DNA of 25,046 bases from a virus: positions 1 through 25,046 of IMG/VR virus record IMGVR_UViG_3300038696_000410; one strand, given 5' to 3'. The number at the start of each line of letters is the position of its first letter. The first letter of the stretch is position 1. The notes beneath the pieces are model-generated. The model ran no database searches and had not been told where the DNA came from. It saw only the letters and a program-made list of their open reading frames with translations. Below, in pieces: positions 1,704-17,981 of this stretch. A program made the position numbers and the translations under genes.

Positions 1704-1729
1704 ATACTAACCGCCCCATGTCACCAAAT

Positions 1730-2707: not shown

Positions 2708-2956
2708 CTAAATGTCACCTAAAACATCTTCCAACTCCCTGCTCACCACCTTATCACGCGCCCTATCCACATCCTTACCCAGAGCCATCGCCAGACTCTC
2801 ATCTGCATCCGTATCATAGACCTCACCACGCGCTTTAGGAGCCTTAGCCTTGATATTCCTCTCAGCTCGCTTCCCACCACGGAACAGCCTCTTAGAAGCA
2901 CCACTAAGACGCTTCAAAAAACCACTATCATTCGTATTTATTTTGACACCTAACAT
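2708..2956 (-). CDS. Small basic protein, possible tail completion protein
   Basis: An 82-residue protein, MLGVKINTNDSGFLKRLSGA..., with a basic first half (KRLFRGGKRAERNIKAKAPKA) and an acidic second half. Its ATG directly follows the TAG of the PAS gene (TAGATG). Proteins in this slot, before the tail terminator, are often HK97 gp10-like or lambda gpZ-like completion proteins, and the K-(x)n-L-x-x-L pattern near the N-terminus would fit a short member. That family is usually longer (120-190 aa), so this could be a truncated or unrelated protein. Confidence 0.5.
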   Translation of the reverse strand: MLGVKINTNDSGFLKRLSGASKRLFRGGKRAERNIKAKAPKARGEVYDTDADESLAMALGKDVDRARDKVVSRELEDVLGDI

Positions 2957-3619
2957 CTACTTCAGTGGAATTATAATTGAAATATAGTGCAGAAACGCAC
3001 CCGCAGCAGGATAACGGAACACATACAGAGCAGCCTTCACTTGCTCACCATCCTTGCGCACATAAGTTTTCTCCATCCGGTAGCGCTCTAAAGTGCCAGC
3101 GGCCACCCGCTCCACATTATCACAGTCCGCCTCCAGATCCTCACCTAAAGTAAGCTCCTGAAACGTCATCCTGGATAACTCCCCAGAAGAATAACCAAAA
3201 AATTCATCACAAGCCTCATTCAGCTTCGTGAATCGATAATCCTTACCCACATAACACATCGGCACAGGATGATTCGTGAACAACACCTTGAATAATTCAC
3301 CATCATCTGGCTTCGCCTGGATCGCACTCACCAGCAGCCGCTCAAGATCCACAATCGCCCTAGTATTCCCCTGCAGGCCACTCACTATCGCCACCTCAAG
3401 CGCCTTGTTAGACTCCACCTGCTTCACACTCACCAGAGTCATCGTCTCCTTCATCTCCTTGGAGTCCTCGCGGATCCCATCCAGAAAAATCACCATCGCA
3501 CCCTCCTTGCCAAACAGCCGAATCCCCAAAAACTTACCCACACGCCACAATAAAAAACAAATCGCAAACGAAATGAACAACCAAGGATTATCCACCGCCC
3601 TATCAAACCAAGACTCCAT
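2957..3619 (-). CDS. Membrane-anchored PAS-domain protein
   Basis: A 220-residue protein. Residues 12-27 (PWLFISFAICFLLWRV) form a single membrane segment. Residues 45-100 are a helical, probably coiled-coil linker. From about residue 108 to the end there is a PAS domain: a first strand and helix (PVPMCYVGKDYRFTKLNEAC), the typical FFGYSSGEL and LTLGEDLEADCDNV segments, then YVRKDGEQVKAALYVFRYP and a last strand. PAS domains sense small molecules, haem, flavin or redox state, or mediate dimerisation. There is no kinase, cyclase or DNA-binding domain attached. It starts 2 bp after the amidase stop, so it is co-transcribed with the lysis genes. Its role is unknown; control of lysis timing is a guess. 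Confidence 0.8.
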   Translation of the reverse strand: MESWFDRAVDNPWLFISFAICFLLWRVGKFLGIRLFGKEGAMVIFLDGIREDSKEMKETMTLVSVKQVESNKALEVAIVSGLQGNTRAIVDLERLLVSAIQAKPDDGELFKVLFTNHPVPMCYVGKDYRFTKLNEACDEFFGYSSGELSRMTFQELTLGEDLEADCDNVERVAAGTLERYRMEKTYVRKDGEQVKAALYVFRYPAAGAFLHYISIIIPLK

Positions 3620-3621
3620 GA

Positions 3622-4263
3622 CTAGTGAGCTCCAGAGTTAGAGGTAAGTTTTCCACACACGCAAGCACACACTCTACCCACCGCACGCCTCAGCCGATTA
3701 GGCCCATCCACCTTATAATAATCACGGCTCATCAGCAAATCATAAGCAGAATCAATAATCGCATCCGCATAAAGATCCAACTTCGCGTTATCAGTCAGAG
3801 TCATATCACCGAGCACCGTATCAATGAATTCCAGCTCCCACAGAACCGCACGCATATTCGTCTCACGCAGCACATGGAAATTAGCCCCCTTAACACCTCG
3901 ATCATTATGCCTAGAAAACCTAGCCATAAGCTTCTCATGGCACACCTCAGCCGCAGCCTTAGATCGCTTAGAATACCGATAATAAAACGTCTCTATTCCA
4001 GTCACCGTAGAATTATACGCATTACAATGCAGACTGAAAAACAGATCACTCTTATTCTCATTCGCATCCCTAGCACGCTCAGGCAGCTCCACGAAGTAAT
4101 CATCGGCCCGCGTGAAATGAAGCTTTATCCCCACCCGCTTAGCACGCACCTCCAGCCGCTTCTTTAATCCCAGAACAACGGACTTCTCTCTCAGACCGGT
4201 GATAGGATTCACCGCACCAGCGTCCTTACCGCCATGTCCAAAATCGATTGTGAGAATCTTCAT
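3622..4263 (-). CDS. N-acetylmuramoyl-L-alanine amidase (endolysin)
   Basis: A 213-residue Amidase_3-family enzyme that would cut the bond between muramic acid and the peptide stem of peptidoglycan, releasing progeny phage. The zinc and catalytic residues are visible in order: His10 (DFGHGG), Glu26 (GLREKS), His79 (FFSLHCNAYN) and Glu143 (VLWELEF). The catalytic domain fills residues 1-177. The C-terminal 35 residues are basic and Cys-containing, with no recognised cell-wall-binding domain. No signal peptide is seen, so it would depend on the neighbouring holin. The start region lacks a Shine-Dalgarno sequence and is A/T-rich. A tRNA gene lies just upstream. Confidence 0.93.
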   Translation of the reverse strand: MKILTIDFGHGGKDAGAVNPITGLREKSVVLGLKKRLEVRAKRVGIKLHFTRADDYFVELPERARDANENKSDLFFSLHCNAYNSTVTGIETFYYRYSKRSKAAAEVCHEKLMARFSRHNDRGVKGANFHVLRETNMRAVLWELEFIDTVLGDMTLTDNAKLDLYADAIIDSAYDLLMSRDYYKVDGPNRLRRAVGRVCACVCGKLTSNSGAH

Positions 4264-4284: not shown

Positions 4285-4359
4285 TGGTTGCTGGGGAGGG
4301 AGTTGCACCCCCGACCTTCAGATTATGAGACTGACGAGCTACTACTACTCCACCCAGCG
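4285..4359 (-). tRNA. Initiator-type tRNA-Met (CAU), divergent
   Basis: A 75-nt tRNA with encoded CCA. The acceptor stem is CGCTGGG/CCCAGCA, so the first pair is a C1-A72 mismatch, the hallmark of bacterial initiator tRNA. The D-stem keeps the initiator A11-U24 type pair. The anticodon loop is CUCAUAA, identical to E. coli tRNA-fMet. Divergent points: the anticodon stem is UCAGU/UCUGA, so the three G-C pairs of initiators are absent and the pair next to the loop is U-U; the D-loop (AGUAGUA) lacks GG; the T-loop is UGCAACU, not UUCAAAU. The last two would weaken the usual D-loop/T-loop contacts. It sits between the lipoprotein and amidase genes in the same direction. It may be functional, specialised or decaying. 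Confidence 0.85.
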
Positions 4360-4366
4360 ATTAAAA

Positions 4367-4663
4367 TTATTTACCTGATCTCTGATCAACTACCACGTCA
4401 GCCACCACACCAGATTCATCGACACGGATGTCTCCTTGGTCAGTTCTAACAACAAATCCTCCCTTGAACTGAAACCCACCAATAGGAGTCACATCCACAA
4501 CATCCATCACCAGCGGTTCATCAGGAGCCGCCGCTATCTTATCCGCATACGGCGCGGGATTCACCTTATAAGCACTCGCTGTCATATCTCCACAAGAACT
4601 ACTCACCAAAGCCACCGCAATAAGCGCAGCCACAACTAGGTATTTTTTTATATCGTTTTTCAT
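4367..4663 (-). CDS. Small lipoprotein in lysis cassette
   Basis: A 98-residue protein with a lipoprotein signal peptide: a basic N-terminus (MKNDIKKY), a hydrophobic core (LVVAALIAVALV) and a lipobox VSSSCG with Cys24. The mature part is about 75 residues, acidic, Val/Asp-rich and beta-like. Lying between holin and endolysin, it could act in outer-membrane disruption, as a spanin subunit does. However, it lacks the Pro-rich pattern of Rz1-type o-spanins and no i-spanin is evident, so this is a positional guess. There is no Shine-Dalgarno sequence before the ATG. Confidence 0.7.
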   Translation of the reverse strand: MKNDIKKYLVVAALIAVALVSSSCGDMTASAYKVNPAPYADKIAAAPDEPLVMDVVDVTPIGGFQFKGGFVVRTDQGDIRVDESGVVADVVVDQRSGK

Positions 4664-5010: not shown

Positions 5011-5046
5011 ACCCCACCAAAAATGTCAACCCACCCAACACAGACT

Positions 5047-7862: not shown

Positions 7863-7903
7863 CTACCACCCCCTTAAATGTCAACCCCAGAAACACCCAA
7901 CCA

Positions 7904-10518: not shown

Positions 10519-11028
10519 ATCCACACCACCCATGTCAACACCATCATCACCAAGATCACCCTCAGAAAATAATCCATCAGGATTCGCCGCTGGACTAGCC
10601 ACCAGATCCACACAAGGAAGCGCACTACAACGCGCAAACATCTTATCACCAACCTTCTCACTCAGACCCTTAAAACTAGCACTCAGACCCACCCCCTTCG
10701 GCATCTTCTGCGCCAGCTCCAGTGCTTGCTCATAGCGTTCATGCTTCTTCAGCAAATGCCAATCAGCCTTCAGCTTATCCCCCACAATCTTAAAATTAGT
10801 AAGGAAACCATTAACCGCATCTGCCCCGGTCTTATGGTTCCACTTCACTGGCACCTGCACCGCCTCAGTAGCGCAGTCTCTCATCTGCTCCAGCGTAGTC
10901 ATATCCGTGTGCAGCTTATGGCCCTTAGCCTCCACCCCACTCGTAATAACACTCACATCCTTGATCACTCCAGACTTCTCATCCACCTGGCCATCCAACG
11001 GTAAAAATTCAAATTCATGTAACTCCAT
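9913..11028 (-). CDS. Prohead protease with fused scaffold region
   Basis: A 371-residue protein. Residues 20-150 resemble U35/S78-type prohead proteases: candidate catalytic His65 (VPVKWNHKTG) and Ser116 in KGVGLSASFKG, then LVASPAANPDGLF. After residue 154 the protein changes to an acidic Ala/Glu coiled-coil scaffold with a charged C-terminus. The motif F-(S/A) occurs eight times from residue 153 on: GLFSEG, VVDFSAA, VEEFSSE, HQFAEG, REFAAH, LEFSAG, SEFSAR and ISFAIG. The first separates protease from scaffold, which suggests these are its own processing sites. The start at 11028 is marked by a TGACA box and GGTGGGTGGTGG; an upstream in-frame GTG/ATG at 11091 would translate palindrome P3. 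An internal start at 10518 is listed separately. Confidence 0.82.
   Translation of the reverse strand: MELHEFEFLPLDGQVDEKSGVIKDVSVITSGVEAKGHKLHTDMTTLEQMRDCATEAVQVPVKWNHKTGADAVNGFLTNFKIVGDKLKADWHLLKKHERYEQALELAQKMPKGVGLSASFKGLSEKVGDKMFARCSALPCVDLVASPAANPDGLFSEGDLGDDGVDMGGVDMSDTNKNPASGNEGNVVDFSAALEAIQSGIEVIGLRLDAVEEFSSEVSDAINLEAEAEAGLEAQHQFAEGEDPVAYLEGRLADDAAAREFAAHEEARDEQLNELNEKLEQVLELNESLALQNQAMANTLSELTDAPLEFSAGADGAVELNIVEGGAGQSEFSARVEQLKSEGKDACEAISFAIGEDEDRYTQHLEESGALV
10519..10538 (-). promoter_or_regulatory. Internal TGACA start box for scaffold
   Basis: Minus strand reads TTGACATGGGTGGTGTGGAT directly before ATG 10518. The box-to-ATG distance (14 nt) equals that at true gene starts, although here it lies within coding sequence. 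Confidence 0.7.
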
Positions 11029-13253: not shown

Positions 13254-13289
13254 ACCCACCCCAAAAATGTCAACCGCAACAACAATCAA

Positions 13290-16057: not shown

Positions 16058-16080
16058 ACCCATCCCAACAATGTCACCAA

Positions 16081-17953: not shown

Positions 17954-17981
17954 ACCCATCCCCACATGTCACCAAAGAACC

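Follow-up and report, generated by a model that had tools for sequence, protein, structure and literature searches.

A putative phage initiator tRNA with A18-G55 at the elbow and an open 31-39 pair in the anticodon stem

We describe an initiator-type tRNA gene in a virus record of 25,046 bases (here called the window, i.e., the whole stretch of DNA that was analyzed, which is probably a fragment), in which A18 with G55 reads as a compensated elbow pair replacing G18-U55 and in which the closing pair of the anticodon stem is open (U31.U39). Judged by its sequence, this is probably a functional gene for an initiator tRNA in a phage most likely infecting Verrucomicrobiota; we favor this reading because the initiator determinants are present, the two pairs read by the ribosome are kept, and the elbow residues change together. 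The same unusual pairings, with matching changes in their partners, recur in the start tRNAs of many unrelated phages and do not look like random damage, and phages appear to run working start tRNAs on rules slightly unlike those of their hosts.

Identity and setting of the tRNA gene

ARAGORN called a tRNA-Met(CAT) spanning exactly 4285-4359 on the minus strand, and its score with Rfam RF00005 was 54.1 bits, well over the gathering threshold of 29 bits (E 2.9e-9). The preliminary description had taken the gene for an initiator-type tRNA with an altered body and had proposed covariance-model scoring; the score above the Rfam threshold, the ARAGORN call, and the sequence determinants uphold this identity, and all of the structural elements that it listed are present in the sequence (Table 1). 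Residue positions follow the standard tRNA numbering. The C1xA72 mismatch is accompanied by G2-C71 and C3-G70, A11-U24 lies in a GAGU/GCUC D-stem, and the CAU anticodon sits within a CUCAUAA loop. A weak 1-72 position, G2-C71, C3-G70, and A11-U24 are described as determinants of formylation and initiation (PMC7949028, PMC11497404), and the tRNA carries the sequence determinants of a formylatable initiator tRNA. The three consecutive G-C pairs at 29-31/39-41 are absent (A29-U41, G30-C40, and U31.U39 stand there), and G18-U55 is replaced by A18/G55, with G19-C56 kept. With pairs 27-30 formed and U.U at 31-39, the tRNA falls under the definition of a 4-bp anticodon stem; the acceptor stem, CCA, D-stem, and T-stem are otherwise intact.

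Table 1. Features of the window discussed in the text
Feature	Position	Strand	Basis or remark
Initiator-type tRNA(CAU) gene, 75 nt with encoded CCA	4285..4359	-	ARAGORN, Rfam RF00005, sequence
Encoded CCA	4285-4287	-	A73 at 4288; sequence
Acceptor stem, 5' side, CGCUGGG	4353..4359	-	C1 at 4359; sequence
Acceptor stem, 3' side, CCCAGCA	4289..4295	-	A72 at 4289; sequence
D-loop, AGUAGUA (7 nt)	4340..4346	-	A18 at 4343, G19 at 4342; sequence
T-loop, UGCAACU	4301..4307	-	G55 at 4306, C56 at 4305; sequence
Anticodon arm, UCAGU-CUCAUAA-UCUGA	4318..4334	-	anticodon at 4325-4327; sequence
Unpaired U31 and U39 of the anticodon arm	4330 and 4322	-	G30-C40 kept; sequence
Upstream gene, 98-aa ORF	4367..4663	-	no PHROG match (0 families)
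Downstream gene, N-acetylmuramoyl-L-alanine amidase	3622..4263	-	Pfam Amidase_3 7.3e-40; PHROG endolysin 5.5e-41
PAS-domain protein gene	2957-3619	-	directly downstream of the endolysin gene in the late operon
GKTGACAT box	17966-17973	-	
GKTGACAT box	16071-16078	-	
GKTGACAT box	13267-13274	-	
GKTGACAT box	10532-10539	-	
GKTGACAT box	7878-7885	-	
GKTGACAT box	5023-5030	-	
GKTGACAT box	2712-2719	-	
GKTGACAT box	1718-1725	-	

The tRNA gene starts 7 nt past the stop codon of the upstream ORF, which contains the lipobox-like motif LVSSSC, and its CCA end lies 21 nt before the ATG of the amidase gene, whose product is a probable endolysin. These two genes and the tRNA gene lie on the same strand in a phage late operon, and because the flanking genes share one strand, the tRNA is most likely co-transcribed with that operon. 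A PAS-like ORF, such as the one downstream of the endolysin gene, also precedes a related tRNA at another locus (L268, by-eye reading).

The host was approached through the structural genes. The portal protein matches, over its full length, that of a prophage-like region in genome G467 (E 1.8e-100, 36% identity), which belongs to the same phylum as a Chthoniobacter flavus MAG (the genome of L148), i.e., Verrucomicrobiota, and the window and G467 have a common gene order comprising protease/scaffold, capsid, and three further ORFs. A second relative, G640, matches in capsid (42-43%) and portal (36%). The phage host is thus most likely a member of Verrucomicrobiota, and a CPR host was dropped on the synteny with both relatives. 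Searches for relatives of the phage by amidase and capsid protein in IMG/VR, and by capsid in INPHARED, found none. The syntenic prophage region of G467 has no tRNA at all, which implies that the tRNA is dispensable in that prophage. The G640 relative, in a Verrucomicrobiota genome, carries a different CAU tRNA elsewhere in the operon (L227, 9789-9865, minus strand), with C1xC72, an elongator-like D-stem, and an A31xC39 mismatch.

We found no close homologue of the exact window tRNA, and it shares 58 to 64 matched positions with five Verrucomicrobiota initiators. A host copy was rejected because the U31.U39/A18 form is absent from host-type initiators in the Verrucomicrobiota genomes scanned. 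An att-site copy of a host tRNA left by a prophage was rejected as well, on the lack of host identity and on a position inside the late operon rather than at an element boundary.

It is improbable that the gene encodes an elongator tRNA-Met or serves only as a processing signal freeing the amidase message. The arm UCAGU/UCUGA does recur in a phage tRNA-Met that looks like an elongator (L002), and elongator tRNAMet often has unpaired stem ends, with 4-bp stems in 27.3% (PMC13092985), but C1xA72 and A11-U24 favor formylation and initiation (PMC7949028). The short distance to the amidase start would suit a processing signal; however, related tRNAs adjoin quite different genes, so that a lysis-specific role is not general, and the idea that the tRNA is tied specifically to lysis genes was discarded on these varied neighbors.

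Coupled residues of the elbow

One residue of the 18-55 contact is called universally conserved in the literature (PMC4810234, PMC7912444). The preliminary description had counted the missing GG of the D-loop and G55 as two defects; on the sequences compared, these are one compensated change, because A18 and G55 change together in scans and in a tree. An IMG/VR scan that fixed A18 and left the T-loop free gave 9 records, all with G55, and the reciprocal scan, fixing G55 with the D-loop free, gave 16, all with A18; combined, they comprise 19 distinct records besides the window. Within the A18 set, L026 and L065 are near-identical with one extra T-arm base, and L136 has C54. Searched in one genome per bacterial species, the G55 pattern occurred at 25 loci, 23 of them with A18, although such G55-selected sets, from IMG/VR and genomes alike, give no measure of G55 frequency. 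Both exceptions, L148 (Chthoniobacter) and L165 (Acholeplasmataceae), have G18-G19 with G55. The Chthoniobacter MAG (L148/L208, genome G001) holds two initiator genes; one has U55, and the other, with G55 next to G18, is an uncompensated exception.

A scan for phage initiators that was neutral at both sites gave at least 120 matches; its pattern requires C28-G42, so that many U31.U39 stems fall outside it and the count is no complete census. Among the 118 parsed of the matches listed, 111 had G18/U55, 4 had A18/G55, and 1 had G18/C55, the others being one C19 with G56 and one odd D-loop; neither A18/U55 nor G18/G55 was present in these 118. The rows with a T-arm one base longer (L088, L096, L120, L026, and L065) were read by eye for these counts. 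An initiator query also matched 112 INPHARED records. Phage initiator tRNAs are already known and not rare, and the earlier statement that they are rare among phage tRNAs finds no support in these counts.

We built a tree of 142 unique initiator tRNAs without the D-loop and without position 55; 33 of the 214 loci were unparsed and left off, including four A18/G55 cases of the viral scans (L026, L065, L109, and L147) and L154. The tree contained 36 tRNAs with both A18 and G55, 104 with neither, 2 with G55 only, and none with A18 only. All 6 of the well-supported independent contrasts for 18/55 were concordant (p 0.031), and over all branches, supported or not, there were 28 contrasts.

Among 583 parsed tRNAs, a sample biased by the scans, A18/G55 was seen not only in initiators but also in Patescibacteria elongator tRNA-Met and in the phage tRNAs for Cys, Gln, and Tyr. 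Some Patescibacteria genomes carry it in both initiator and elongator tRNA-Met (L157, L160, L161, L166, L169, and L174). In the phage tRNAs L077, L100, L136, L025, L104, L119, and L263, A-U or C-G replaces G-C at the other elbow pair, 19-56. None of 387 Verrucomicrobiota genomes gave a match to a short D-loop with A18. No publication on A18-G55 in tRNA was found in a literature search that covered few subscription journals; laboratory selection work on the 18-55 elbow reportedly exists and may bear on this form.

The open 31-39 pair and possible roles of the tRNA

Host initiators are uniform, with UCAGG-CUCAUAA-CCUGA in all 43 pattern matches, which came from 38 of 59 Verrucomicrobiota genomes (the pattern had no match in the other 21), and the initiators of G467 and G640 have the same arm. 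A29-U41 is, by these arms, the norm of the likely host phylum, and the anticodon-stem departure of the window tRNA would therefore be U31.U39 alone. We scanned IMG/VR and two phyla with U31 and U39 fixed and 27-30 and 40-43 free. With AGCUC preceding the stem and AGGUC following it as further fixed bases, a pattern that reaches only initiators having both, the U31.U39 form was found in 36 other IMG/VR records (30 distinct tRNAs including that of the window), in 0 of 299 genomes in the phylum of G003 (the genome of L158, Pseudomonadota), and in 0 of 367 Verrucomicrobiota genomes.

In all 30 distinct tRNAs, residues 27-30 pair with 40-43, and G30-C40 is present in 30/30, though the scan pattern left this position free. 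Position 29-41 is A-U in 20 and G-C in 10, whereas 28-42 and 27-43 covary with at least four pair types each. Furthermore, 1-72 is never G-C or C-G, 2-71 is G-C in 28, and 3-70 is C-G in 27; one member, L270, combines U31.U39 with A18-G55, as the window tRNA does. In E. coli, 16S rRNA residues A1339 and G1338 touch 30-40 and 29-41, and a swap of G30-C40 alone cuts translation about 20-fold (PMC11497404), while a full replacement of the three G-C pairs is inactive in initiation (PMC10486304). At the level of sequence conservation, the U31.U39 class keeps exactly both of the pairs read by the 30S head, namely, G30-C40 and 29-41 (purine-pyrimidine), and loses 31-39 alone.

These patterns bear on the earlier suggestion of a decaying copy. 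We consider it unlikely that the gene is such a copy of a formerly normal initiator tRNA, passively carried. Its cloverleaf is weak in silico (-23.1 kcal/mol, against -28.0 kcal/mol for an alternative fold): the cloverleaf is more stable in 203 of 231 CAU tRNAs, and an energy gap as large was seen in only 15 of the 231, the window tRNA included. Its Rfam score is also the lowest among 22 tRNAs compared, and the G467 relative does without the tRNA. The weak fold, the low score, and the lack of a close homologue leave room for a damaged copy. However, the change at the elbow is matched by its partner, both variants are found again in unrelated phages, where the pairs that touch the ribosome are retained, and the CCA and the acceptor, D-, and T-stems are otherwise intact; damage would not explain matched changes together with kept contacts.

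If the gene is instead a working initiator, its tRNA would be cut from the late-operon transcript, charged by the host MetRS, formylated by host enzymes, and admitted to the P site, where it would start late translation of the phage. The altered positions would most likely persist because ribosome and formylase do not need them, or they may be kept because they change features used by VapC-type initiator-targeting toxins or by host modification enzymes.

VapC cleavage in tRNAfMet probably lies near 38/39. A stronger form of the working-initiator explanation is that the body changes were selected for hiding the phage initiator from host toxins directed at tRNAfMet (VapC through the anticodon arm, AtaT through initiator identity), which we regard as possible but doubtful; that starts would then continue after loss of the host initiator is a similarly tentative proposal. 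Resistance to anticodon nucleases has been proposed for phage tRNAs, and most phages are said not to carry tRNA-fMet where VapC targets it (PMC10264068); VapC toxins cut the anticodon stem-loop, and AtaT acetylates Met-tRNAfMet (PMC7180214). Thus, toxin escape would fit the published proposal and the known toxins, and the closing pair of the stem-loop is altered in 30 distinct phage tRNAs versus 0 of 666 genomes in two phyla. Nevertheless, many phage initiators keep a closed 31-39 (118/118 parsed among the matches listed, with a pattern that excludes some stems). We only tentatively suggest that phages have repeatedly evolved an initiator class of their own, with A18-G55 and/or an open 31-39, that retains just the contacts required by ribosome and formylase and would be unrecognised by the toxins or modification enzymes directed at host tRNAfMet.

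The preliminary description had also proposed a specialised initiator acting with unusual start boxes. The boxes are real: GKTGACAT occurs 8 times on the minus strand of the window versus 1.12 expected, and not on the other strand, and it is not a plain Shine-Dalgarno sequence. By eye, an ATG follows the box by 12 to 15 nt in 8/8 box-led late genes. One boxed ATG is an internal start within the protease ORF, which may mark a nested scaffold gene. The link to the tRNA was, however, rejected on the box positions and on the relatives, given that the box is seen four times in G467, which has no tRNA, and is absent from G640 and from in front of both genes flanking the tRNA. A relaxed start selection, in which an initiator with a 4-bp stem accepts more codons (through C34, AUA or other near-cognates) and makes unusual starts usable, is very unlikely. 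Under the extended superwobble hypothesis, C34 tRNAs with 4-bp stems should read AUA, and tRNAfMet of this form should be selected against in bacteria, but in the main class of that paper the open pair is the one at the top of the stem rather than 31-39 (PMC13092985); besides, all box-led genes have, by the same reading, an ATG after the box, and both flanking genes start with ATG.

Significance and comparison with known systems

Initiator tRNAs are said to need three G-C pairs, and the 18-55 residue is called universally conserved. Natural phage initiators that break both rules, in a compensated or selective manner, are ready variants for testing which contacts initiation truly needs. If phages do have an initiator class of their own, an 18-55 pair described as conserved would be swappable in nature. 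The U31.U39 class bears on the idea that phage tRNAs escape host tRNA-cutting defenses, as well as on the idea that bacteria purge 4-bp-stem initiators; no phage initiators with an open 31-39 were found in the literature searched.

The tRNAs with 4-bp stems surveyed by Fakih et al. in 2026 resemble the window tRNA in having one terminal pair open and account for 82 of 50,849 bacterial tRNAfMet genes (about 0.2%); that survey covers bacterial genomes, and the word phage is absent from its main text (PMC13092985). Bacterial tRNAfMet and the window tRNA share C1xA72, G2-C71, C3-G70, A11-U24, the CUCAUAA loop, G30-C40, and an encoded CCA, whereas the window tRNA has A18-G55 instead of G18-U55, a 7-nt D-loop, and U31.U39 and A29-U41 where bacterial tRNAfMet has three G-C pairs. 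The annotated tRNA-fMet of Caulobacter phage CcrSC is likewise a phage-borne initiator type, but it has G18-U55 and a closed 31-39, neither of which is found in the window tRNA. Some Patescibacteria initiators (L149, L153, and L157) match the window tRNA in the A18-G55 elbow and the short D-loop, although they are cellular genes with, in most, a closed UCAGG/CCUGA stem; the A18-G55 form is rare even in Patescibacteria, occurring in 1 of 239 genomes of the phylum of G005, namely, G005 itself. A relative from a cultured phage is available in Brevundimonas phage Kikimora, whose tRNA-Met (L232) has A18 with G55 as in the window tRNA but differs in its 9-nt D-loop, GCGC D-stem, C1xU72, and closed stem.
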